In this document: positions 4,220-60,292 of the stretch, piece by piece
Layout: each line of letters begins with the position of its first letter
Position numbering within the stretch: the stretch's first letter is position 1
DNA from: Nereocystis luetkeana
Taxonomy: Eukaryota > Sar > Phaeophyceae > Laminariales > Laminariaceae
Reading direction: 5' to 3'
Assembly (NCBI GenBank): GCA_031213475.1
Contig: JARUPZ010000002.1
Coordinates: 16,991,373 to 17,055,372, forward strand
Length of the DNA stretch: 64,000 nucleotides
Made by a program: the position numbers and the translations under genes
Notes under the pieces: model-generated
Database searches by the model: none
What the model saw: the letters and a program-made list of their open reading frames with translations, nothing else
Told to the model about the DNA's origin: nothing

Positions 4220-5757
4220 CTGAAGGCTCTATCTATCCTGGAGGCGGCAGCGACCTCACCAGCAAAGGTACGGTGTCCCCGTCCTGTCGAGAATTGAGCA
4301 CGCCCGGGTCGTGTGCGCTATACGATATGCACCTCGCGGTTCAGAAAGAAGCCAGCTCCCGGGCCCCTGCACTCACTCCAGCCCTGGGGGCTGGCGGGGG
4401 TCGTATCGGTCTGTAAAGTAATTTTCCCTCGGTAGGGAAGGGGCAATTCTTGGAAAAAGAAGCTCTGGCTCGTTCACAACAACGCTCCGCCTTCGGATCC
4501 TCGAAATGGCACCCGCCCTTAGCTACTACTCAGTCGTGTGTGGGTTGCTGGGAGATCGTTCGAGCAGGCACTCGTGAGTATTGTTGCGCTACGTGTGACA
4601 CCAAGGAGAGTAGCAGCAGTGCAACCTAATACTATGTCATCGTGGAGCTTTCGCCACCCGCTGTAGACTACCGAAGGGGCTTTGAATTAAACCATTCGGA
4701 AGTTTGAGCCAATTAAAATTCACCCGAGATTCATCATATTTCGTAGTTATGACATCATTTATACACAATGGTTGATAGAAGGCGAGGGAAAAACTTTCTC
4801 AGGGAGCATCTCCTTTTCTGAACACTGGGTTGTACTCGTGGTACCGCGGCAACGGTACGGTACGACGGTACGCAGCAGTATGTTTCTGCTTCCTGTCATA
4901 TACGAGGTATACGTCCCTTTTTCTTCTGTCTCTTTTATTGCAGACAGACAGGTTGCTCGTTTGTCGTTTGTCCTTTTATTTATTTGTTGGTTTGCTATGT
5001 CCGCGAGAACACAGGCAGAAGAAGGAGGGAGGAGCGAAAAAGATTTTCGCCATCATCATCGTCATCAACATCCATCGCCATCATCGTCATCATGTCTTTT
5101 TATAGTCTTTCTTGCAGTGTGTTCGGACAATCACAGCTGTTTTACAAGTACTACAAGTGAGCACAGCAACCCCACATCATCACCAATCTACATCACCACC
5201 ACCACCACCACCACCACCACCACATCATCGTCGCATCATCATCTATTTTTTATGTTTCATCGACTCACCACACCACACCATCACAATCGATCAGCAATCA
5301 TTCATCATCGCCAACAACAACACCGCCGTGCATATATAGACAGGGAGAGGCACCTCGTCGTATGATATGACGAAGCTAAATTAATGCCATGATGTTATTT
5401 TTAGTGTGCAGATACCAGGTACCAGGTATGCATTACCAGGTATATCAGATACACTTACTGGGTGTGATATGTACACAAAAAAAAGATCGCGCATATATAT
5501 AGAGCCGCATGGAGCTGTATAGGAACGTTACGTTCGGTTCGTTCGTCCCAAAACATGTGCTGCTTGCTGCTGGCTGTATACAGCTGTCGCTAGAAAAAGA
5601 AAGCACTGGTACATACATCTATGTGGTGACAAGGTGCCAGAGGTTACGAGGGGAGTGGGGGGGGCATGATAATATGCAAAATCAAGTACCAGGTATATAT
5701 TGATTGATTTATTATTGTAGTACAAAAAAACTTTTTACGCCAGTAGGTACGTACTCA
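4220..5757. other. Intergenic stretch upstream of the RRM gene
   Basis: No gene recognised. It holds a CAC/CAT-rich microsatellite (about 5045-5310, with a CAC run at 5190-5222) and three TACCAGGTA words at 5413, 5420 and 5434, the first two overlapping to share TA, plus one at 5687. The minus-strand promoter of the RRM gene should lie at the left edge, but I saw no clear core element. Confidence 0.4.
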
Positions 5758-6108: not shown

Positions 6109-6957
6109 GAGTAAGTATTTTTGCGTTGCGGCGTCACCATCATCACAAGTCTATTTTGCTCTCTGTTGAACATGATGTATATGTACGTATGTACGAGTAT
6201 GTATGTGTATCGTAAGTAACAACTCTGCAGGAGAAGTAGTACCAGGTATTAATAGTTCTTTGGTTTTTGTCATGGGCCCTACCTGATGTATACTCTGTGC
6301 TGCTGCTGTACTTTACACAGAGTATCTCTTGTTACTTTTGTTCGGCACATACATAGTATTGTATGATACAATACGACGCGACGCTACGTAAAAAGGTTTG
6401 TCCGTACGTACCTGAAAGAACGGTTTAATGTGAAGAACAGAAAGGCATTACTTACTCGTGGAAGGAGGCATCATGCTGACTCTCAATGACATGCGATGTG
6501 CTCCCTCTTGTCGTGCTGCTTGCTGCTGCTGCTGCTGTGTGCTGTTGTTCTGTTTATTATACGCTCATCACGATAAAATATACCCGTCCGTCTCGTTTTT
6601 TTTGTACCAGGTACCCGCAGTATATTTAGTATACGATTATTACACATATAATATACGTATACGCGTATCGGCATTTATTAATATGTGTACCACAGATATC
6701 CAATCAAAACGTCCCACGTATATGTTTCTTTCACGCTACTCTGTACGAAGTGTGTGTTTCTTTCACACTACACTGTACAGCAGTAACTCTGTACTCTGTA
6801 CACCAATCTGCGGCAAAAATCTGAAAGCTAAAAAGTCGAAATAACTTTTCGCGCTTGGGCGTGAGAGATTGAGAAAAAGTATTCGTAGGTAATGGCCCGC
6901 AGGAAAAATCGCGGGGAAACGATCCTCCTCTTCTGCCCCATATTAAATTGATAAGAT
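6109..6957. other. Intergenic, no gene seen
   Basis: A+T-rich unique sequence. Contains the compound word TACCAGGTATTAATA at 6240-6254, a TACCAGGTA at 6605, and short GCT and TA runs. No open frame with coding character. Confidence 0.35.
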
Positions 6958-11313: not shown

Positions 11314-11435
11314 TAGTAATACGACATGATAGTAATAGTAATACCAGGTACCAGGTATAACGTATGCCTGTACCCTTCTGTTGACGCCTATTAATAGTTT
11401 GTGCCTTTTCGTGACCATGGGATTATAGAATAATA

Positions 11436-11579
11436 TTACGGGGGACCCTAGTTAATAGGACCAAATATTGTTAGTAAAAATGGTTAAATATATACCAGGT
11501 ATATATATATATTGTGTGGTTTATATATATATATTGTGTATGCCATATCGTAGGTCCTATTAACTATGGTCCCCCGTGA
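11436..11579. mobile_element. MITE-1 copy with internal insertion
   Basis: Same ends as the other copies but 144 bp long. The central AAATATA is followed by TACCAGGTA (11493) and a duplicated TA/TTGTGT segment. The right end reads CGTGA instead of CGTAA, so the flanking TA is damaged. Confidence 0.88.
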
Positions 11580-12238: not shown

Positions 12239-12582
12239 CCCTCGCTGCGTTTTAGGTAGAGCAGTACGTCACATGCACATAAGCCTCTATAGATGAGTGA
12301 AGGACTCCGCCATTATCTCCACTTTCGGGAGAAACTCACACAACAAATACTATTATTCATAATAATAATATTAATTATTGATAATAACGCAACAAAAAAG
12401 TACCGGCAATCGGCAATGATACCGCCCTCCTACTATTATTGGGAAAAACATGTATTATTATAGTAATAATGGTTGCGGCTGCTGGTGACTTGTAGTGACT
12501 GACAATTGCTGTGGCGCGGCTGACTGATGATGACGATATGAAATACCAGGTACCAGTATAATATTATATATAAATAGTAGTA

Positions 12583-12699
12583 TTACGGGGGACCATGTTA
12601 AATAGGACCAAATATTGTGAGTAAAAATAGGTAAATATATACCAGGAAGGTTTTTGTCTTTACCGTATCGTAGGTCCTATTTACTATGGTCCCCCGTAA
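12583..12699. mobile_element. MITE-1 copy (GTAAATAGG subfamily) with a decayed footprint
   Basis: 117 bp, TA on both sides (12581-12582, 12700-12701). Its inner termini read TAAATAGGACC rather than TTAATAGGACC, marking a second subfamily also seen at 26699 and 34063. At 12640 it has TACCAGGAA exactly where other copies have TA, so it seems to be TACCAGGTA with one substitution. Confidence 0.9.
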
Positions 12700-12777
12700 T
12701 AGTAATATAATGTTAACCTTGACATTAAATTTTAGTACTGCGCTGCACATGTACCTAATTTTGAATCTAATTCCAAA

Positions 12778-34853: not shown

Positions 34854-37170
34854 CCCTCATCGATGAGCAGGACACCGCGGAACAGCAGAGCAGCACATAT
34901 ACTTATATATATATATACATATATATATGCATATATATATACTAAGTATATCCTTGTCTCTGCCCTACATGCCATGATATGCTTCATCCGTCCAACTTTG
35001 AAAATGAACACCTGTAGGGAACAGCAGAGCAACGCGTGGAATTGGTTATGCTTTCTACATATCAATAAATATGTACCAGGTATGATGAACACAATAATGA
35101 AGGTGAGCTTCGAAAGGCAACGAAGATAAAGCCGGTAACAGTCAATCAATGGTGGAATCGACAACCAACGAGAACGGCCGGTATAACCAACACCACGAGG
35201 AAGAAAGGTGTACGGGTACAATGAGAGGTCAGCCGCATCCGATGAAAATATCAACCAAACAAGTGCCTTATGAGGCAAGATACGGGGGTATATGTATCGT
35301 TAAGGTGGCGGTACATAGGTTACGGTGGTGGTATAGGTATTATTCCATCGAGCGTTGACGACTACCTAGCGAACGCAGTAAACAAGCCGTAGAACCCTTA
35401 ACCCAGCCTTTTCCATGTTGGGCTCCGCGTAGAGCTTTCTGTTGGGCCTGAAGGCTACACGTCCACGTGGTGAGTACTGGGGACGGTGTACGAAAAGTGT
35501 ACCAAAAACTGGTATGATAGGGCGACAGATGCCCGTCGCCCACCTTATAGACCATTACGCCCACGCAAGGTTCAACTTTCCGTGTTTCCAAAAACTCACA
35601 TACAGCACCTCTTTAGTGCCGGTATGCGCCAGGCAACATTACCGGCACTATGGTGGCAACCGGTCCTACTCCGCACACTATGATGCCACACTGGAGGATC
35701 TAATCTGTGCTGGAGGATCTAATCTGTGCCCAGCAATTCTGCAGACACTATAGAGGGCTACCGGCACTATCCAACCTACACTAAAGAGGAACCACTGCAA
35801 TATACCAGGTAACCGTTAGTATTCGTTGCAAACCCTGTGGGTGTTCGAGGGCATCCGGGATCCAGCTGGTTTAAGATATGCCATTAGATCTAAATATCTG
35901 AAATATCCAAACTCACACAAGATACCGGTGCATTTTAAAGATCTTCACGTACGAATGCTGCTGCAGTTGTACTGTCCACATGATACGTACGAGGACCGTT
36001 TTCTCTGCTGCTGTGCGCAGATGAGCTTCGCACACTTATCGTACGTAGCTCTGCAGAGCAAGTGTTTCGTCCGTTACTTTTGAAGCACAGAGAGTAACAA
36101 GACAGACAGGCTCTTACGTAAAAAAAATGTACGAAGGCCCACAGCTCGTCTCTCCCTGCCATATACCATGCTGAATGATTAGTAGATACCGGCACAACAG
36201 TACTCGTACAGTAGAAGATATCTATAGGAAACACGATACACGCTCCCGAACGCCCGGCTCGGGCATCAGCCTTCACAGACAGGGTATGCCGGATGGCACA
36301 GAATGAGGTACGTGCCAAGTACCGATCGATGCTCTAGATATATCAGGTACGTATATACGTGTACAAGTACAGCAGTAGAGCCTGTGTACGAGTAAAAAGG
36401 TTGCTTCGTTTTCAACTACTGTTGTAGAGATACAGCTATTAGTATGATTTCCCCTTACATGCTGAAAATCCACGAAGGTTCCAGAAGGCCATCCCACAGA
36501 CAAACCACGATTTCTTAGTATAGGCGAGATGGTACAGGCGAGATGCCAACTTTCCCACCACGAATATGCGTAGCAAGCTCCCGTGCATTTCACGAGGCAG
36601 CACGACACGCCACACCATCTACAGATGTGTCTACGCCTACATCGTAGAGCTGTGAAGTTTCCTGCCTATCTATAAGGGTCGTCTTTAGCCACACCTAAAA
36701 CAGTTTTTGGCAAGTTTTTTAGAAAGTTTCAATTCAAGTCTCGAAATTGCAAGTAAGTCCAAATAGCAAATACCTGGTAGCGTACGTATAAAAAAATCCA
36801 TAAACTCGCCAACGAAGGACTGCAGAAGTATCCAAGATGAAATTTGGGAAGAATCTTGCCATTATGGCAAGCCCATTTTTTTCATAAACTTGCCAATTAT
36901 AATTGAGCAAAAACACCTTGCTAAATATGTGTCGTTAATAAAAGGGCCTCATCACGACTATCACACAGCAAGAACAACGTTGTTCAAAGCGTTCGTTGGC
37001 AATGCACTACGAGTACATGTGACGTTTCGCCACAACACTCCTGCCCCGTTTTTGAGCAGGGCAGTGAACTAGCTGAAGCGCTGCGATGCTGGGCTCGTTC
37101 GATCACCACGGATAATGCGCATGATAGGCTCCGCCGGAATATCTCGAGCAGTGCGACCCCACAGAACGGG
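34854..37170. other. Intergenic upstream of the 37 kb gene
   Basis: A+T-rich. A TATA/CATA run lies near 34905-34945, a 19-base tandem duplication of CTGGAGGATCTAATCTGTG at 35691-35729, TACCAGGTA at 35074 and 35803, and TACCTGGTA at 36771. The promoter of the plus-strand gene should lie at the right edge; I saw no clear TATA element. Confidence 0.35.
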
Positions 37171-38418
37171 ATGAACGGTGATGATCTGGCAACGCCCGTC
37201 GCGATGCGTTCGCCTCTCGCCTTAAATGATGCACAATCAGAGAAACAATTACCCTTCTATCTGTCTCCGCCGGTTAGCGGCTTATCACCATCTGAGGTTT
37301 GGCTTGAGAAGCTGGCCGACGAGCGCCGTAAGTGGATGATCGCTTTGTATCGCGCCGGAAACTACAACCGTCCCGTCGACAAGCGCCTCCAATTAGCTCA
37401 GGAACCCAGTTCGATGGGACCCAGTTCAACGCAACGGATCATCGTGCAGGCTGCTGACTTTTGTCGTCGTTGCGGCTCGATCGTGGATGTTGGGCTGGAA
37501 AGCATTGCTACTGCAGGGGAGGGCGCGTTTGTTACCGAGCACCGCAATGGATGCTCCTCGTGCGAGAACGAGCAGCACAACAGGCGCGCGATCAACAGCA
37601 GCAGCACGGAAGCACCGCGTTTCTGCCGGAAGGGCAGCCTTCACCACTGCCACGTTTACCGCAGCAAGCAGTTAGGGCAGGCGAACGCATACGCGAATCC
37701 CGCCACTCCTCTTCGACCGCGGCTATCAAGCGATCAGTCGAGAAGATCGTCAGACGCCTCCCTGAACGACGGTCACAGCCTATCTTCTGCACCACCAACA
37801 ACAACAACAACAACAACCACAACAACAGGTCGGAGTCGCACCTCGTCGCACAAATACCGCCAACAAGAGCGTCGCCGGGCATCCGCACCACCGCCATCAG
37901 CCGTCGCCGATTCGCGTCCGACAACGTGTGAAGGGTTCCGGACTGGTTCCGCCACGCAGTTGCGTACACCATCCGGAGCTGGTGGTGCCACACGGCTGCG
38001 AGGGGGGAGTGAACCCAATCGGCGCCAGTCAGCATCGCAGGAGGGGCCGATCGGCTTCCCTCTGGAGCACGGCTTATGTCCCCGTGAAACTCCTGGTCGT
38101 TGGAGTAAACCACCGCGAAGCTTCCAAACGTTGCTTACCGCAGACAACTCCGAGCGCGCCCGGGGGGAAGGAATGCCCGGAAAAACATCGAGGAAGCAGG
38201 CAAACGCAGAAGCAGTCGGCAATAGTTCAATCACAGGCTCGGGTCGGGCTTCAACGAACGAAGTTGCTGTGTCGCCGGGGGATGGAGGCTTGCCCCCGGT
38301 CGGTGGAAACTGGGCAAAAGAAATCAGAAGAAAGGACGAGCAGATACGGGTACTGAAGCAGAGGCTAGCGTCACTACGGCTAGCTGAACAACCCGTCGCA
38401 GAGATGGTTGATCTACGG
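37171..38418 (+). CDS. Unknown multi-exon gene, exon 1 (416 codons)
   Basis: The longest convincing reading in the window. It starts at ATG 37171 (an acceptor-like CCACAG just upstream leaves open an earlier exon) and ends at donor CGG/GTGAGT (38419). Residues 98 and 101 (FCRRC), 128 and 131 (CSSC), 152, 160 and His 158/159/161 (SLHHCH) could bind zinc, though the spacing fits no family I know. A run of about ten Thr (near residues 209-218) comes from an ACA/ACC repeat. The middle is Ser/Arg/Pro-rich and probably disordered. The end, KEIRRKDEQIRVLKQRLASL, is a short coiled coil. The next exon continues in phase 0. A scaffold or regulatory protein is possible, but no function can be assigned. 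Confidence 0.7.
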
Positions 38419-38786
38419 GTGAGTACACGTCCAATATCTGGATAGATTTTGCCAGATGAATGTAAGAGGCCGTGCACCCTCACCGCACTAAACCGCTCCC
38501 TTCTTGCTGTAATGGGAAATTGGCCAGCAGCACCACCTGCAGCACCGCTAGCAGCACCACCAGCAGCACCACCAGCAGCACTACAGTGGCATCAGGGTTG
38601 GTAGAGAGGTCTCAACCCATCGTTTTTTCCCCGTAAAAAATCCGGCTGGCTATATATAACCTCGTTGCTGAATCGTGCCTCTTCGGTGTGACGGGTCGCG
38701 TGTGACGTGGCGTAGCCTCGTTCGGGGCTTTTCTGTCCCTAAGAAAAAGTCGCCACCTATTAATAGTAACTGCTTTCATTTCAAAG

Positions 38787-45717: not shown

Positions 45718-45729
45718 TACCAGGTACTA

Positions 45730-45841
45730 TTACGGGGGACCATAGTTAATAGGACCTATGGTGTACATAAAAACCTACCAGGTATATATTTAACCATTTT
45801 TACTAAAAATATTTGGTCCTATTAACTATGGTCCCCCGTAA
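45730..45841. mobile_element. MITE-1 copy carrying a TACCAGGTA footprint
   Basis: 112 bp, which is 105 + 7. TA on both sides (45728-45729, 45842-45843). The inner sequence reads AAAAACCTACCAGGTATATA where the uninterrupted copy at 57463 reads AAAAACCTATATA, an exact 7-base gain. Further footprint words lie just outside at 45718 and 45846. Confidence 0.93.
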
Positions 45842-45843
45842 TA

Positions 45844-46239: not shown

Positions 46240-46930
46240 GGGGAATAAATAACCCCCGCAATTATCAGGGGCGTGGGGTATCATAGCTGTCCTGCACCTT
46301 TTTGTGCCAGACAGCCCAGGAAGAGATAGATGGCGATCGTTTATATTCGTGTGGTAGTAAGGTTCGATTGCTCCTTTTTCACAGCATATATATGCATGCG
46401 TGGGAGTCTTCATTCTGACAGCACTTCAGATAGCAGGCAGGTGTGCTCCTCTCTTCCTTGTGTTCACGACTACCGTGCGTTTCGTACGGTGCAGACAGCA
46501 CTCCAGACAACAGCCGCTGTAGCCAGCAGCCACAACTTGCTCTAGTGGTGTGTGTGTTCTTCACATTAAACCGTTATTCTTACCCGTCGACATCCAGCAC
46601 AACAACCAGTGTCCGTGCCGATTCTTCAATCCTAGAAGAGATACAAGTTCTGTTGTCACAAAGCTACGCCACAGAGTGGGAACGGGGGAATTCTATGTGG
46701 TAGTTGAGAGGATATACCCGTGGCCATGTTATTAATACCTGGTAGTTCAATTTGCGCTTTGGTTTTTATCTTGTGTGCGCTTTCTCCGTCTCGTGTATTT
46801 TTAGGCAGCCGAATTTCGATTTTTTAAGGGTTTTTCGGATCTTCCTATAATAGGGTTCCAGCACCTTTGTGTGACCACGGACTCCTTCGTCTGAGAGTTA
46901 ATGTGAGAACAACAACAACAACAACAATAA
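46240..46930 (+). repeat. Duplicated segment, copy 1 (order A-B-C)
   Basis: Block A: ATGGGGAATAA to CAGCAGCCAC (46240-46535). Block B: TGTTCTTCACAT to GTGCCGATTCTTC (46555-46630). Block C: AGTGGGAACGGGG to GTTAATGTGAGAACAACAAC (46674-46920). Copy 1 holds TATTAATACCTGGTAG at 46730-46745 where copy 2 has TAG. Confidence 0.88.
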
Positions 46931-47003
46931 TAGTCTAAACGTACACGTTGTTGTTGTTGTTTTCACAATACAGCGCAGTCCGTGGTCGCAGAACAGGCTC
47001 CAG
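46855..47003. repeat. Repeat T, two inverted copies (hairpin element)
   Basis: Left arm: TCCAGCACCTTTGTGTGACC, ACGGACTCC, GTTAATGTGAGAACAACAAC. Right arm: GTTGTTGTTGTTTTCACAAT, AGTCCGTGGTCGCAGAACAG, GCTCC. A short loop of about 25 bases separates them. The pair could be a complete inverted-repeat element of about 150 bp. Confidence 0.7.
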
Positions 47004-47146: not shown

Positions 47147-47176
47147 TCTAACCCTAACCCTAACCCTAACCCTGAT
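47147..47176. repeat. Interstitial telomere-like repeat (CCCTAA)n
   Basis: Four tandem CTAACC units followed by CTGATCC. Matches the TTAGGG telomere type common in eukaryotes. Too short to be a chromosome end. Confidence 0.85.
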
Positions 47177-47542: not shown

Positions 47543-48180
47543 GGGTTCTTCACATCATTGAACCGCCGTTCTTTTTTGGTTCTTTCTACCCCGTCGACAT
47601 CCCGCACAACCAGCGTCCGTGCCGATTCTTTAGTCCATACTGGTATATTCATGGGGAATAACCTACGCAATTATCAGGGACGTGGTATCATAACTGCTGT
47701 GCTGCACTTTTTTGTGTCAGACAGTCCAGGAAGAGATTATGGCGATCGTTGATATTCGTGTGGTAGTAAGGTTCGATTGCTCCTTTTTTGACTGCATATA
47801 TATCCGCGAGTCTTCACTCTGACAGCACCCCAGATAGCAGGCAGGTGTGTTCCTCTTTCGTTTTCACGACTACCGTGCGTTTCGTACGGTGCAGGCAGCA
47901 CTTCAGACAGCATCCGCTGTAGTCAGCAGCCACGAGTTGGTTAGTGGTGGGAACGGGGGTACTCTTCTATGTTATAGTTGAGAGGATATACCCGCGGCCA
48001 TGTTAGTTCAGTTTTGCACATTGGTTTTATCTTGTGTGCGCTTTTTTCGTCTCGTGTATTTTGAGGCAGCCGAATTTTCGTTTTTTTTTTGGTTTTTCGG
48101 ATCTTCCTAGGGCTCCAGCACCTTTGTGTGACCACGGACTCCTTCGTCAGAGAGTTAATGTGAGAACAACAACAACAACA
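47543..48180 (+). repeat. Duplicated segment, copy 2 (order B-A-C)
   Basis: Block B (47543-47640: GGGTTCTTCACATCATTGAA, CCGTCGACATCC), block A (47650-47940: TTCATGGGGAATAACCTACG, TCACGACTACCGTGCGTTTC), block C (47945-48180: GTGGGAACGGGGGTA to GTTAATGTGAGAAC). Compared with copy 1, B has moved from between A and C to before A. Confidence 0.88.
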
Positions 48181-48196
48181 AACAACAATATAGCCG

Positions 48197-48546
48197 GTCG
48201 CCCCGGTGGGTCGAGTGGTTAACCCCGAATTCTGCTTGAGTTTGAGTCCTGGGTTCGAGCCCCAGGTGGGTCGGACATTTGACTTTATTTGCAGAAATAA
48301 AAATAAAAAGGATTCAATTGTTGAGAGCGCCTTGCAGCGTGGGTAGGCACAATTCGATGCGAGTCGACGAGGGAAGAAAAGGCTGAAATATTCTCGCGAT
48401 AAAAATGAAGGTACGTACCGTAGCGGGAAGGGGGTAGAAGAAGAGCCTGCTATGTGACCCCGGATCTGAGTTACGAGTTGGAAGGAGAGAGAGAAGAAGA
48501 TGTGCGAAGATAATATATGGGATGAGCAACAAAAAAAAAAAAAAAA
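48197..48546 (+). mobile_element. SINE-A copy 2
   Basis: Full length: GTCGCCCCGGTGGGTCGAGT, box B GGTTCGAGCCCC, body as in copy 1, A tail 48531-48546. Preceded by TATAGCCG, which also precedes the copy ending at 59143. Confidence 0.92.
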
Positions 48547-49320: not shown

Positions 49321-50277
49321 CCCCCTAAGAAGCATCTATTAATACCAAAAACCCGCTGTCCATCAAAATGGCCCTGGTAGTTAATAAGTGTTGTTGTTAT
49401 GCGCATCTTTCAACGCGCAGAAAAGGTCGTGAATTCTATAAAAGAGTAGAAGAGAGAAAGCGAAACACACTAAAACACGAAAGGATCTGGACGAGAGGGT
49501 CTGTAATCTGAAACCGACGCAGCCGAGCCGACTCTCTGGCATCCTTGGCGGGCGGGACGAATAGCAAGATGAAACATATTACCTGGTATGAATGAAGCTG
49601 GAAGGGGACAGAGAAGCACGGCGGCCAGACCTTACTCCTTACTCCTGACTGTATGGACAACAACGAAAACAACAACCTGATCGATCGTCGGTCGACCCTT
49701 CGTGCGCGAACCAACGAGAAAGAGGACGGGAAGAACATAGCATCATCATCGATCTATGTATCGTGCGCGGCGGCCAATAGGAATAAACAACGAAAAAAAC
49801 TACCAGGTACCAGGTACGCTGCTGCTGCTGCTGCTGCTGCTGCTTGCTGCAGTTTACTACTACTACTGTACGTGCAACGCCTTTCGACCCTTTTGTATAT
49901 TTTTTTGTCTCTCTCTCGCCGACGCACTCCTTTTTTTCAGGAAATACAAAACCCCTCCTACTTTTATTACTGCGAGTGAGTATGTGTACCTCTGCAGAGA
50001 GAGGTAAACGCAAAAAAAAAAGAAGAGAAAACGGAACCACACCGAGTACTCGCCGCCATGTCGGAATTGAAACCAAACTACGCTACTCGTATTAATGATA
50101 GGATCACTCTGACCTTTGGGTCAGAATGGGAGCGGGTTGGGGCTTTTGTCAAAAAGTTAAAAAAAAATATCCAGGTTTGTTTTACTTGATTTTAGTATAC
50201 CCCTCCCCCCTTGTCTAGGACTGCCCCAATAAAGGTTGGGGTGCCGATATTTTTTTTCGTGTACCCTTCCGGCCTGT
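49321..50277. other. No gene assigned
   Basis: Contains TACCTGGTA at 49580, the overlapping double word TACCAGGTACCAGGTA at 49801 and a GCT run (49818-49845). Open frames on both strands are compositional. Confidence 0.3.
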
Positions 50278-51683: not shown

Positions 51684-53534
51684 CGAAAAAAATCCTACTC
51701 TGATTTCAAGTAGTTTATCCCCAAAAACGAGGGTAGGTGCACTTTCTGAAGGGGGCACGGTTGCAGCATTCAACTCCCCTTATACCTGTACAACATCCAT
51801 CGATTTTGGCCTATCACCACTACTGCTTGCTGTGAGTCGACTTTCTCTCTTCTTCGTCTGTCGCTGTAGCTTTTGCTTTTTTTCCCGGAAAGGGAAGCTG
51901 TTTATACAGTACACACCCTCCTCTGTCTTCCCAAAGGAAAGCTGTACAATCAAAATAAAACGGGGAGCGGAGCGGAGCCCCTCAAAAAACAAAGACACAA
52001 ACGTCGCCCCCGCCAACTACGAGTGAGTTTGTTACATTTTACAGTAGCGAGCGTCACCCCGGCGCTACTACTGTCCCTCATACTATGATATGAACAAATA
52101 CTATTATGCCACGCGAACAATCTATCTAAACAACCGAAGAAATAATAAAAAAACGCTCGACGGTTTCATTTTTTTTCGAGGGGCTGACCAACAACAACAG
52201 GCATCGACTGGAACTCCGAAGTCTTCTCCTCTCCCCCCGGGTGGGTGTGGGACACGTACGGCTGTGCCTGGCCGACATAGGGCTGTGGGTTGTCTTGGTG
52301 TGCGTGTTGGGCTCCCCCTCCTCCTCCTCCTCCTCCTCCTCCTCCTCCTGCGAACGAGCCAACGGGGAGTTGCACGTGGTCGATTCTTGGTTTGCATTTG
52401 GGGATGTTGCGGTCAGTAGACGCCACGGATCTCGGCTCGACCCACCGCTACTGCTTAGTATTACCAGTGTGTCAACTGGTGCTCGAATGCATGTATCACT
52501 CCACCGTGTATAGATGTACTACAAACAATCGAAAACAGACGTCGACGTCATTCCAACCCGCCCTTCCCCTGTACCATACCAGATAAGAAATCAACTGAAG
52601 AGCAAACGACTGAGCATGTGTGGTACAATCTTATAAAAGGGCAAAAATGTCATCACCAGCAAACTATTATGCAAAAGAAATGAGATGAGCAAAACGCAAG
52701 AACATAAAATAAATACCGTGATGGCGTAGTATCAGAACCGGGGGAAGGAAAAATCCCAGAAATTCCAGAGGTACACAGCCCCCATCGCACGTGTACACAT
52801 ATAAGAGCCAGTAGAATGAACAGCGAAGCCCAGTTCGCTCAGTCAGGAAGCTCTCGGAAGGTCGACAAATAAACACAAGAGACAAGGGGAAAGGCTGTGA
52901 GTGTGTGTCTTAACCCCCCCCAGAGAGCATTGGAACGAACCGAATGGAATACTATTTGCCGCATGATTTGGTGTTGATTGGTTGTGGGAAACGAATAGAT
53001 TCAGCTCAGCCCGAGAAAAACAGTATATCTAGGAAGAGGAAGAAGAAGTGTTGCACCCCTTTTTCTTGTTCGGGAGGACCGAACGGCCCGACCGAAAGGG
53101 AACAAATATCAGATTATTTGATGTAGATGGACACCACCGAAGATGGGTTCGGACACCAATTTGCTTTGGCATGTGCAAAGGACACCGTTCGTGCCGATTC
53201 GGCTGGCGAGGCCCAGGATTCTTCTGCATGGACCCAAACACGTTTTTTTTTAGGTAGGAACGGAACGAATGACCACGAAGAGCCTCGTTCCGTTCCGCTC
53301 GTTTCCATGCTCTTTGGTGGGAGTTAAGACACGCCCTGAAGGCGCCATCCACTTTCCCCCCACTTGGCACTCAGAAAAACCGAATCAGTCTCGCTTCTCG
53401 CAGACACACGTGGCACGTAGAGAAACGGTGATAAATCCACAATTTCTCCATCAAGTTCGAAGATATGGTCACCCAACCCGCCTTCCGACGTATTCGCAGC
53501 GGGTGACCTCACCGGCGGCGTTCGCGGGAGGCTA
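51684..53534. other. No gene assigned with confidence
   Basis: A CTC run at 52315-52350 encodes poly-Glu on the minus strand (artefact likely). Plus-strand frames at 53127-53327 and 53269-53550 have protein-like composition and a T-rich acceptor at 53253, but no domain; the second ends inside the MITE-1 that follows. Confidence 0.28.
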
Positions 53535-53639
53535 TTACGGGGGACCATAGTTAATAGGACCAAATATTGTTAGTAAAAATGGTCAAGTATATAGGTTTTT
53601 ATGTATACCATAGGTCCTATTAACTATGGTCCCCCGTAA
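53535..53639. mobile_element. MITE-1 copy (near consensus)
   Basis: 105 bp, TA on both sides (53533-53534, 53640-53641). TTACGGGGGACCATAGTTAA to TAACTATGGTCCCCCGTAA, with perfect 29-base termini. Confidence 0.95.
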
Positions 53640-54065
53640 TAGGCCACCGGTTCGTCCCAAGCTATTTATAACCATACGCGTGGAATCCTTGACCTCATAG
53701 CTGATCGAAAATATATCATGCCACTCCGTCCCTCGTAAATCAGGGGCCGTACTGATTCAATAAAAATATACAGAAGTTCCAGATGTTTAGGAAAAGACTA
53801 TAGTGCTCACATCATAGTTGAGAGGAATAACTGACAGGCAATATACTGCTGTCTGTGGTACGTGTACACCGTTTCTTCTGTTGATGATCACCTCTCTCGC
53901 CCGCGAGGCTTTAAGCCGTATCGCCAACCCTCCGACGCGCACGTAAAAGGCGCAGTACCTGGCATCATACAAGGCACGGGGAACCTAGGAACTAGGAACC
54001 CCTCCCCGACGACACTTGTGGCCGTCCCGAACAAGCCGCTCGACTGCGAGATCATGCCCAGCAGC
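53640..54065. other. Intergenic, no gene seen
   Basis: Nothing recognised beyond AGTACCTGGCA at 53956, a one-base variant of the footprint word. Confidence 0.35.
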
Positions 54066-54123: not shown

Positions 54124-54467
54124 TTGTTCGTTTATCTCACATAAGCTCATGGCCGCGATCTATGAATAACACGTGGTCCTGAGACGAAGCGGCACGATGT
54201 GCACGACGCCTACAGGTGCTACGTCTAGCTGCAATAATAGTAGATACAGGAGGTGTACAGAGTAAACCGGACCCCATCAAATTTCAGTCGGGGGGGGACC
54301 AGGGTGACAGCCAGTACCACCACCCGCTGCACATACACTTAAGCAGTGCTGGCATCCACAGCAGTATACTTCGTACTGCCGTAAGCATAGGCAAAGAATT
54401 CCCTTTCGATAAAAATAGTGACGCAGCAAGTCCGACAAGCTTGGCCAGCCGTCGCCGGTCGCCCCGG

Positions 54468-54803
54468 TGGTTCAAGTGGTTAACCTCGAATTCTACTTGT
54501 TTGAGTCCTGGGTTCGAGCCCCAGGTGGGTCGGACTTTGACTTTATTTGCAAAAATAAGAAATAAAAAGGATTCAATTGTTGAGAGCGCCTTGCAGCGTG
54601 GGTAGGCACAATTCGATGCGAGTCGACGAGGGAAGAAAAGGTTGAAATCTTCTCGCGATAAAAATGAAGGCACGTACCGTAGCGGGAAGGGGGGAGAAGA
54701 GCCTGCTATGTGACCCCGGATCTGAGCTACGAGTTGGAAAGAGAGAGAGAACAAGATGTGCGAAGATAATGGATGGGATGAGAAAAAAAAAAAGAAAAAA
54801 AAA
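54468..54803 (+). mobile_element. SINE-A copy 3
   Basis: Full length, box A-like TGGTTCAAGTGG, box B GGTTCGAGCCCC, A-rich tail 54783-54803 with two G interruptions. The closest relative is copy 1. Confidence 0.93.
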
Positions 54804-55650: not shown

Positions 55651-57462
55651 GAAAGGTAAAACGACGGTCACAGCAGCGGCCACAAGAAGCAGCAGCCCGA
55701 GATATCGGCGTACATTGTGTGTCCGAAGCTTGATGTAAGGAGCTGTAGCACCCGCGCGCAGCATGGCGATTCTTGTACTGCTGCAAGCTCTACCTACTAC
55801 AACTGCTGGACCGTATTAGACGGCTGATAGGGTCGCACCCATGTCTTTTTGGTCGCTATGCATGGATGGATCCCCAAATACTGCAGGAAAAAACCGTCGG
55901 GTGATTTAGCACTATTAATAGGTCGTACGCAAAATATATACCAGTACTAGGTATATGCGTAGTATCTCTAAGTTCACGTGAGATGCCTGTTTTGTTCACG
56001 ACCGACGGAATTAATTATTCACAGTCATGGGCTCTACCGACGGAACCTAATAGTTTAAGTTACCCAGAGGCAGAGAGAAGAGAAGAACGGCCACACCCGT
56101 ACCGTACCCCCTCCTAGCTTCTCGTGACAGGTGCCCAAGCAGAACACGGCACTGCTCGCTGCCGATTGATAGGCCTAGAGGCTAGGTCTACTGTTGTGGT
56201 TTCTCCCGCCCACCCGCCCCTTTCTTCTTTCGAGGGCGGATGGGACGGAGCGGCCACATGGTGCTGGCCACACCGTATTATACTTTTATTGCTATCTGTG
56301 ATTAACTGGTAGCGATTCGGGGCTCTCACCAGGAGAGTGGAGTTGGGGTATGTCAATGGTTTTCTACCATTGGGGGTCTCGGTCGTCCGGGACTGCGTTT
56401 GTTTGAGCCCCGGCCAGTCGGCTGGGGGGGGGAACTCCCGGTTACTGGCAGTACGATAGGCAACGAGAGTCAGCGGCCGGTGCCGTGGCTCTCATACCAC
56501 GCCAGTAGACTCCCCCCCCCGACATCGCAGAGAATAATAATAACATGACAATTCGAAGGATATACAACAAAATTGGTACTTTTCCTTCTCTCTTCATTTA
56601 TTTATTTTTGTTTCTTTCTTTCATTCTCTCCTTCAATTTTTTTTGGATCATCTTTCGTTTTTCTCTACTTCAAAAGTGTACCAAACATCTTGGTTGTTCG
56701 CGTGTACGATATGAAATATAAAATATTTTGTGCTTGCCCTATCCAGCACGATGGCGTATGAACAGCCATGCATTGTCTACTCTCCGTACGGCACTCTGAT
56801 TTACCTGAGGCGTATATCTGTGTCGTCGTTTGGTGGTCACAAAGCTTGTACAGCAGCAGTACCGGTTATCTCGTCATCTCTCTAAGAAGAAGAGGAACCA
56901 GCACATCACCATGGACACAGGGTGTACTGGATGTCGACAGGTGTAAGAACGGTTAAATGTGAAGAACGCACACAACACACACTCAAGCCACATGGTGCCT
57001 TCGATGCGGACACAGCAGAGCTCAACGTACAAGACGATGGAAGTTCCGAAAACATGAAAACATGCGTGATATACGTGGGCAGTTACACACACACGAAACA
57101 GTCGTAGGCCAGCGGCGCGTCCCATCTCAACGTTTACGACTGCTGCTGTTCACTGGTAGGTTTTACGTACGTGTGAGGGTCAGCGCATACTCAGTGGCTG
57201 CATTGGCTGCCGGCTGCACGTGGATCTTCACGACACCAACCACAGAGTAGAAACTCTTGTGTACCAGCGCCCAGGCACAGCGGTACGTACTACAGCAGTG
57301 CAACTTGTAGTACCAGGTACGTAGGAGCGTTGATTTCCATTCCAACATCAGATATTTTTCACCAGTTTCACCATGTTCTCGGGTACACTGACACACTGAC
57401 ACACGGACACGAACGCCTACTACAGGGAATAACTGCTACCTGTTACTTACAAAACAGCAGTA
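55651..57462. other. Intergenic, no gene seen
   Basis: An inverted pair of GGCACCGGCC/GGGG-like words lies near 56430-56520. TACCAGGTA at 57311, TATTAATA at 55912. No convincing exon. Confidence 0.3.
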
Positions 57463-57567
57463 TTACGGGGGACCATAGTTAATAGGACCTATGGTATACA
57501 TAAAAACCTATATATTTAACCATTTTTACTAACAATATTCGGTCCTATTAACTATGGTCCCCCGTAA
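57463..57567. mobile_element. MITE-1 copy (near consensus)
   Basis: 105 bp, TA on both sides (57461-57462, 57568-57569). It is the uninterrupted reference for the copy at 45730-45841: AACCTATATATTTAACC in its centre. Confidence 0.95.
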
Positions 57568-57962
57568 TAGTAGTTGCACGACCCTCGGCAACACAATCCT
57601 GAGGTCGGCCCCGGGTCGGTGCCTCGATTGTGTAACATGTAAATACTGCTGCTGCTCTTGTTGCCGTTGGCTGCTGATATAATCCCGGCGTGTGTCCGTA
57701 CAGCCGTACAGATTACCGACCACCAACCTTTACGTACGTACCTGGTACTGCTGTAGTGACAAAGTCCAGTCCCACAAGGCACACGACAGCACACTTTTGA
57801 CGATTACGATTTCAAGCGAGGCAACGGAACCCACGGGGCCTTCATAAAATACATCCCCTGCAAAACTCATCACGCCTGCATCCAGAGGTGTTTTCCGGGC
57901 AAGGGGAAAACCCACTCTGTCATCTCCGCGCTCGTCCACACCCCAGGGAGGCATTGACTAAC

Positions 57963-58791: not shown

Positions 58792-59143
58792 TATTTTTTT
58801 ATTTATTTTTTTTGCTCATCCCATTCATTATCTTCGCACATCTTCTTCTCTCTCTCCTTCCAACTCGTAACTCAGATCCGGGGTCACATAGCAGGCTCTT
58901 CTACCCCCTTCCCGCTACGGTACGTGCCTTCATTTTTATCGCGAGAAGATTTCAGCATTTTCTTCCCTCGTCGACTCGCATCGAATTGTGCCTACCCACG
59001 CTGCAAGGCGCTCTCAACAATTGAATCCTTTTTTTTTTTTTTTTTTTTTCAAATAAAGTCGAAGTCCGACCCACCTGGGGCTCGAACCCAGGACTCAAAC
59101 ACAAGTAGAATTCGAGGTTAACCACTTGAACCACCGGGGCGAC
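58792..59143 (-). mobile_element. SINE-A copy 4 (full length)
   Basis: T-rich tail 58792-58813, body, long T run 59029-59050 where other copies have an A-rich spacer, then box B (GGGGCTCGAACCC on the plus strand) and box A. It ends at GACC, reading GTCGCCCCGG on the minus strand. Confidence 0.92.
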
Positions 59144-60292
59144 CGGCTATATATCGAATATCGAGGGCAAACGCGCAAAGCATCATCACAGGCGGCCATC
59201 CCTTTGGAAGAATTTCGGAATCCGAAAAATCGATCCGAAGCTGTCATATATATGTGCTCCACCGCCACGCGTGCTTTCGCCTGTTTTCGACCAGGGGTCC
59301 GGCAGGATCGGGCTCGCTTTTCTTAGAACACTTGCGGCGCTTTGGTGAGACTTCAGACCCGCTTTTTTCTTCAGCAGGGGCGTCGTACGGAGTTTGAGAA
59401 ATAAAAACGGGAAGAGGCTACCAGATAATATATACCCTCGGGTATATACCGGTATCGACGACTATCTATGGCTTCTTTTTAGGATCAATCGCGTCCGAAA
59501 CCCATTCAGCGGAATGGTAACATCGTAGTAGGGCAGTGAAGCAGAGGCAAAGCTACAGGTCCAAGGTGTGTGATGCAAAGTGCAAACCTCGTTTCAAATA
59601 TCAAAATCTTCGAGGAAACTCGCTGTAATTATTTATTTTCCGGTTTGGAAATGCTATCTGATGACCAAAACAATTAAATAACTTGACCTCGGTTTCAATT
59701 TAATTATTTCGTACTGGAAATAGAGGTAATTATTTATTTTCCGTCTTCGGTCTTCGGGCACATGAAATGGAAACTGCAGTATATACGTATCGACATTTTT
59801 TCGAAAAGAAATCGCAAACGGCGTGGGATGCCTCTCGCGAGATGGCTGGTGGGACTTCCAGAAAAGCCGGCCCGATATAGGCCGGTTCCTTCGGTCAAAG
59901 ATGCCTGCGAAGGTTCTGACGTCTCATTTTTCAAGGTTTCAAAATCAGTTTGGTATAAGAGATGGCCCACAGCTGACGTGTGACGTGTGACATACTAAGT
60001 ATTTTTTTCGACGTAGTAAGTAAGCAGCAGCAGCAGCAGTCAGTCGTAGCAACACGTATACCTGGTACAATAGGAGGGCAAGCTCACCAAAAAGAAGAGA
60101 AAAAATCGACGCGTTTTGGGTTGCCTTATTTGCTCGATCGAATCGTCCGGCCATTTTGACCTACGGATTGTAGTTTGCCACACTTTTATTGTGGCCGGGA
60201 CGAGGAGGTTGGCGGGGTGTCGAAAGTCCCGAGAGGCGCGGAATGACAGTGAGCAGGTTTCGGTATTTAATACGGAGTACGAAGTTACTAGT
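59144..60292. other. Intergenic, no gene seen
   Basis: A tandem-like pair of TAATTATTTATTTTCCG words (59626 and 59727). TACCTGGTA at 60059. No convincing exon. Confidence 0.3.

Follow-up and report, generated by a model that had tools for sequence, protein, structure and literature searches.

Footprints of Tc1/mariner transposons are well known (PMC8151067, PMC4505599, PMC2874221, PMC1925063), and these and related papers describe several close systems. Sleeping Beauty/Tc1 leaves a CAG footprint, giving TA-CAG-TA (PMC8151067), while Stowaway MITEs of the Triticeae leave footprints of 1–4 bp end remnants and can re-insert at the same TA (PMC1925063). The mariner element Mos1, which targets TA, is cleaved in a staggered manner with a 3-nt 3' overhang (PMC4505599). 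In a genome-wide survey of DNA-transposon excisions in rice, only 8 of 94 were perfect, and most involved deletions or filler (PMC4423477). In Blepharisma, a pogo transposon is the source of the most abundant MITE (PMC9942856).

Here we analyze two short words, TACCWGGTA and TATTAATA, in a 64,000-nucleotide stretch of the Nereocystis luetkeana genome (the window) and in the remainder of the assembly. We propose, with a probability of roughly 0.87, that both are footprints left by the excision of cut-and-paste transposons of Tc1/mariner-pogo type. Such an element would enter at a TA and duplicate it, a few bases of each terminal repeat would remain on the flanks at excision, and end joining would shut the gap to give TA-(left remnant + right remnant)-TA.

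The TA target, the short terminal-repeat remnant between two TAs, and the end-joining repair resemble what is reported for Sleeping Beauty/Tc1 (PMC8151067), and the variable-length remnants of both ends and the repeated insertion at one TA resemble what is likewise reported for Stowaway (PMC1925063). In contrast to Sleeping Beauty/Tc1, the remnants here are mainly CCWGG and TTAA, with words counted in the 100,000s. The Stowaway account concerns a single intron locus, whereas the present scars are genome-wide and those of the CCWGG type occur without a resident element having been found. Unlike the rice footprints, the present ones are clean and uniform, although messy excisions would escape word counts. 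The mechanism is of a known kind, and what is unusual is the number of the scars, their uniformity, and the absent maker of the commonest one. In the cited papers, footprints are counted at single loci or in hundreds, compared to more than 100,000 uniform scars here. No earlier description of such scars in large numbers was found in the literature searched, which is no proof of absence; TACCAGGTA occurs in 119 papers, of which the 20 listed had unrelated titles.

Abundance of the Words

TACCWGGTA occurs 41 times in the window, against 0.46 expected, and TATTAATA 20 times, against 0.81. Over the whole genome (465 Mb, 1,987 contigs), the counts are 182,395 and 93,112, respectively, the reversed-spelling controls giving 1,744 and 10,689. 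A sample set was composed of 20 10-kb pieces at round coordinates of contigs C1–C8 together with the window (264 kb, simple repeats masked). In this set, the CCWGG core is found between TAs 122 times (2.5 expected) and the TTAA core 64 times (1.6 expected), while the identical cores occur 0–3 and 1–9 times, respectively, between seven other flank pairs. The enrichment of CCAGG/CCTGG and TTAA is thus limited to TA flanks. The word TA-CAG-TA is mildly enriched in the same 264 kb (85 vs 43 expected, with one of seven control flank pairs reaching 87), and one unscarred allele was seen for it (L019:8782).

The parity of CCAGG and CCTGG (41:40 in the samples) is no evidence, because strand symmetry forces equality. 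GGWCC between TAs, considered as a third word, belongs to the terminal repeat of the MITE discussed below. TWA (TATTATA/TATAATA) is enriched, but its flanks mismatch the MITE profile (p = 0.47), and it was not retained as a MITE footprint. Separately, TA-CTCG-TA/TA-CGAG-TA is enriched in the 20 samples and the window, occurring 44 times against 10 expected. The base ahead of the TA is preferentially G, and this is perhaps another scar family.

The Composite Locus and Its Duplicate

The word TATTAATACCTGGTA, at positions 46730–46744 of the window, is set inside CCATGT-...-GTTCA, while a duplicate located ca. 1.3 kb downstream reads CCATGT-TA-GTTCA. The two copies are 84% identical, and their alignment shows a clean gap of 13 bp here, for which a placement between two TAs is possible (Table 1). 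A first-pass annotation of this DNA had stated that the copies differ by exactly TTAATA plus CCTGGTA, and both the direct reads and the alignment agree with this. A second TA-x-TA difference between the copies, with x = TAA, lies 116 bp beyond the gap.

Table 1. Scars, Duplicate Segments, and MITE Copies in the Window
Feature	Position	Strand	Basis or remark
TATTAATA, TA-TTAA-TA scar	46730–46737		one of 20 in window; missing from duplicate
TACCTGGTA, TA-CCTGG-TA scar, TA common with TTAA scar	46736–46744		one of 41 in window; missing from duplicate
Lone TA of unscarred duplicate	48004–48005		direct read and alignment
TA-x-TA insertion, x = TAA, copy 1 relative to copy 2	46846–46850		alignment
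Duplicate segment, copy 1, scarred	46676–46932	+	84% identity to 47947–48190
Duplicate segment, copy 2, unscarred	47947–48190	+	alignment
TACCAGGTATTAATA, second site where TTAA and CCWGG scars have a common TA	6240–6254		word scan
Double scar TACCAGGTACCAGGTA	5413–5428		word scan; others at 11342–11357 and 49801–49816
TATTAATA scar, homologue L010 with one TA only	49337–49344		74% alignment
MITE copy with CCAGG scar at 45776–45784	45728–45843	+	unscarred copies have one TA there
Unscarred MITE copy, terminal repeat TTACGGGGGACCATAGTTAATAGGACC	57461–57569	+	TA + 105 bp + TA
Unscarred MITE copy	53533–53641	-	sampled-copy comparison
Partial MITE copy, CCWGG scar at 11493–11501, same hot spot	11434–11511	-	sampled-copy comparison
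MITE copy, decayed CCWGG scar near 12640, TCG insert at 12664	12581–12701	-	copy comparison

Genome-wide, TATTAATACCTGGTA is found 846 times. If one scar falls randomly on either TA belonging to the other, the sampled scar density predicts ca. 850 occurrences per event order, and the same formula with the genome count of TATTAATA predicts ca. 690; if both orders were equally free, 1,400–1,700 would be expected. By these expectations, the composite at 46730 represents two common events meeting at about the chance rate or below. As to their order, the scar-site preference gives a score of 0.5 for TTAA first and CCTGG second, against −3.9 for the other order, and on these scores we favor TTAA before CCTGG. 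The path proposed in the first-pass annotation, from TA through the TTAA scar to CCTGG, agrees with this preference, which is no proof of it, but its view of one two-step event has to be given up, the two words being separate scar families with differing site preferences.

A telomere-like interstitial run of CCCTAA units is located between the two duplicate copies (ca. 47149–47173). At 48199–48274 of the window, ARAGORN detects a tRNA-Ser-like sequence (anticodon gct) that heads a dispersed SINE-like repeat, with related stretches at 54454–54500 and 59101–59147; both orientations occur.

Insertion at TA in Repeat Copies

When 288 kb were compared all against all, 181 distinct insertions of 4–40 bp relative to a copy were obtained, of which 35 are flanked by TA and 24 by AT. 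The preference for TA depends on length. Among the distinct 7-bp insertions, 7 of 18 are TA-flanked, six of them being CCWGG, and 7 of 33 are so among the 5-bp ones, the next dinucleotide reaching 2 in each case. TA does not lead at 4 bp, where it flanks 8 insertions and AT 16, or at 8–12 bp, where it flanks 3 and TG 6.

The CCWGG x-TA insertions at one TA amount to six distinct 7-bp events, with doubles besides, and three clean TTAATA insertions at TA were located (49337 vs L010; L021:3784 vs its own array units; L006:2867 vs L009). Insertion at TA is thus shown, and these separate clean events bear out the earlier proposal that each word is a unit turning one TA into TA-x-TA. A homologous copy was available for only 21 of 93 TTAA and 28 of 157 CCWGG sites in that set. 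That the alternative allele should contain a single TA and nothing else is seen in the clean cases; in several alignments of 61–81% identity, a single clean TA is not recovered from the unscarred copy.

A 105-bp MITE as Landing Pad

Many scars lie in a MITE composed of TA + 105 bp + TA, with terminal inverted repeats and ends TTACGGGGGACC..., which carries no gene and is too short for a transposase gene. It duplicates its TA on insertion, as seen from one-TA empty sites for three insertions, the third from an alignment of 79%. The 356 kb examined, part of which was selected or represented twice, contain 42 MITE regions, and 1,332 first-look candidates were found genome-wide, the 40 that were scored being 96–100% identical. 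A scan of the MITE end against viral contigs gave no match.

Of 40 distinct copies sampled, 7 have a scar, CCWGG or CTGG, at the MITE motif AAAAACC-TA-TATATTT, and the other 33 lack it. For the MITE cases, the polarity is therefore that of an insertion. The scarred copies differ in sequence, involve both W letters and two neighboring TAs, and have scars of two lengths, and we accordingly take several scars as independent, although copies with a common scar may have it partly by descent. The scarred copies are also less similar to the reference MITE copy (p = 0.04, 7 vs 33 rows), as if older.

TACCWGGTA is found exactly at this motif in 1,212 places genome-wide, and any insert of 1–25 bp in 2,136 places, the reversed control giving 1. 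Among the first 100 of the 2,136 inserts, all on contigs C1–C2, 58 are CCAGG or CCTGG and 7 are CCGG; rarer ones in the same 100 listed are CCAGGG, CCCTGG, CCATGG, CCAG, CTGG, and CCA, with double or triple scars accounting for 10. A first base other than C occurs in just 130 of the 2,136, and many of those shown resemble decayed CCWGG or TA-repeat growth. An insert fixed at exactly one x-TA unit, with no more and no fewer bases, as the first-pass annotation had required, is contradicted by the CCAG, CCGG, CCAGGG, and CCATGG variants, which exist even at the same TA. Such variation breaks that strict rule, yet it is what end joining predicts.

Two MITE copies in the window carry TA-TCG-TA insertions (12664 and 31392), which are three bases long and scar-like. 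Elsewhere, L014:9519-9871 contains TACTCCGAGTA/TACTCGGAGTA units in a local array, the unit being a near-palindrome of 7 bases flanked by TAs, and one of the inserts at the MITE hot spot is CTCCGGAG; from these two observations, a CTCC-ended element family may exist.

Origin of the TTAA and CCWGG Scars

The flanks of TATTAATA and the insertion sites of the MITE have a common profile, with A at −5, T at −3, A at −2, and C at −1. The log-odds correlation with the MITE target profile is 0.82 for TTAA and −0.04 for CCWGG. Scored by this profile against random TAs, the TTAA scars exceed the background (p = 1.5e-21, 61 of 65 sites used), whereas the CCWGG scars show no excess (p = 0.94, 120 of 122 sites used), the sites left out being microsatellite contexts and ends. 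The C at −1 persists when CTA-like contexts are removed (45/83 vs 19%, p = 1.4e-12). The 5' end of the MITE is TTA, its ends reading 5'-TTAC. On the basis of the common site preference and this end sequence, the TATTAATA scars are probably MITE footprints, and TTAA would arise either as TT+AA or as TTA/TAA overlapped at TA. When the joined flanks of 39 MITE copies were compared with the 356 kb, no locus with a MITE allele beside a TATTAATA allele was found.

Judged by the same site preference, the CCWGG scars do not appear to come from the MITE. Their terminal sequence was deduced with a remnant model, in which an insert joins i leading bases of CCAGG to j leading bases in reverse complement. 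The model can yield 77 of the 100 listed hot-spot inserts from contigs C1–C2. Of all 1,024 5-mers, CCAGG ranks first, with 76 of 84 alleles of 2–7 bases, and it is still first when the two main alleles are removed (18 of 26). CCAGT, CCAGC, and CCAGA follow at 75 of 84; the evidence is therefore for CCAG, with the fifth base perhaps G. The short variants in the 264 kb are one-sided, CCAG occurring 35 times (8.8 expected) and CCAGGG 8 times (0.8 expected), compared to 9 for CCTG (12 expected) and 0 for CCTGGG in the opposite sense, and this asymmetry orients the missing end as 5'-CCAG. The observed remnant spectrum is consistent with end joining of two CCAG-ended termini, and CCWGG would then be the footprint of a putative CCAG-ended element, usually as CCA+GG or CC+TGG. 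The ends of Mos1 also begin with CCAGG. TTAA and CCWGG alike would be explained by a 3-base 3' overhang of the sort described for Mos1.

Search for the Maker of the CCWGG Scars

No element ending in 5'-CCAG was found in 288 kb, where no 20-base extension past TACCWGG recurs more than twice. Those that do recur, as three pairs of identical and one of near-identical sequence, were rejected as element ends, because they are inside longer repeats whose likeness continues upstream. Among the first 100 of 378 hot-spot junctions, variant and tandem scars were seen along with a few extensions occurring once each, and no non-scar sequence recurred. Scar flanks split by long inserts gave 96 rows, which we read as repeat cross-matches, none having TA-CCAG at both ends.

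Pogo-type DDE_1 transposases give 28 matches in the genome, and we infer that the scars may be linked to transposases of this type. Two DDE_1 elements have TA-flanked terminal repeats, which match over 93 of 97 bases from TACCGTAATCATGCG at L040 and over 21 of 22 bases (CGCGACAKCACTTAAGAAT) at L041; neither begins with CCAG or TTAC. No convincing terminal repeats were found at the other DDE_1 loci examined (L029–L039). A weak 16/20 terminal-repeat pair around the DDE_1 gene at L039:3062-9191 was considered as a CCAG-ended element and dropped after a genome count, since 6 of the 47 genome matches of its pattern are without the scar's A, which is about chance by our estimate, and it is not a multicopy end. 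A first-look search for the Tc1-type DDE_3 transposase gave no matches. The mariner-type PF01359 gave none either, with the controls equally silent, so that, in the comparison with Mos1, a mariner-type transposase was not found here and the search could not exclude one. The Pfam scan of a 506-aa frame at 36925–38442 of the window gave no match. We also note inverted copies of a pogo-like element at L040:1615-8591, with TA-flanked ends CCGTAATCATGCG..., which are more than 99% alike along 1.9 kb.

Alternative Explanations

The 182,395 scars, for which no element appeared in what was searched, could suggest that CCWGG is made directly, by a nuclease or an abortive transposase that adds five bases at TA during break repair, with no resident transposon involved. 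We consider this improbable. The inserts can be described by nested remnants from a pair of opposed CCAG ends, the one-sided short variants indicate a single terminal sequence, and direct making offers no evident reason for retaining 2–4 bases per end.

Marginally less probable still is the almost complete removal of CCAG-ended elements by a developmental program, like the excision of IESs in ciliates, such that the sequenced nuclei show scars only. This would account for scars whose makers are not visible, and MITE-rich, TA-bounded programmed elimination is known in Blepharisma (PMC9942856). Against it stands the decay of the scars. One-substitution relatives of TACCWGGTA number 131, against 55 expected, and the decay is even over its nine positions (chi-square p = 0.62, background uncorrected). 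The mean decay is estimated at roughly 7%, and even mutation of this extent implies that the scars are inherited and not remade every generation.

The even decay also suggests no constraint on TACCWGGTA. Strong over-representation and near-palindromic form would suit a conserved binding site or another functional motif, but the one-TA alleles, the even decay, and the more than 1,000 copies at one place in the MITE leave this with a negligible probability, and the first-pass annotation's reading of the words as scars, not as a conserved binding site, is supported. An origin by microsatellite slippage or point mutation is equally negligible. Tandem (TACCAGG)n exists and some TATTAATA lie within (GTA)n arrays, but 61 of 65 TTAA and 120 of 122 CCWGG sites survive removal of microsatellite contexts.

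Returning to excision footprints, we find it conceivable, if rather doubtful, that the CCAG-ended element left ca. 200,000 scars and kept almost no resident copies, either because it self-excised to extinction or because its insertions were nearly always removed, possibly developmentally. If true, the genome would be a readable record of visits by an otherwise invisible element. These scars may be the trace of an element that has since become rare or disappeared, and they indicate a transposon family that could escape repeat annotation, no copy of it having been found. Their measurable site preference, repair spectrum, and decay could make transposon traffic and end-joining outcomes readable as a time series. 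They also call for caution, since over-represented short near-palindromes can be scars rather than regulatory motifs.

Finally, among the junctions listed, eleven identical scar-bearing ones are located on contig C4 (G000:C4:7852811-8757060), ca. 65–140 kb apart, six on one strand followed by five on the other. This arrangement suggests a large array that has been duplicated and inverted.
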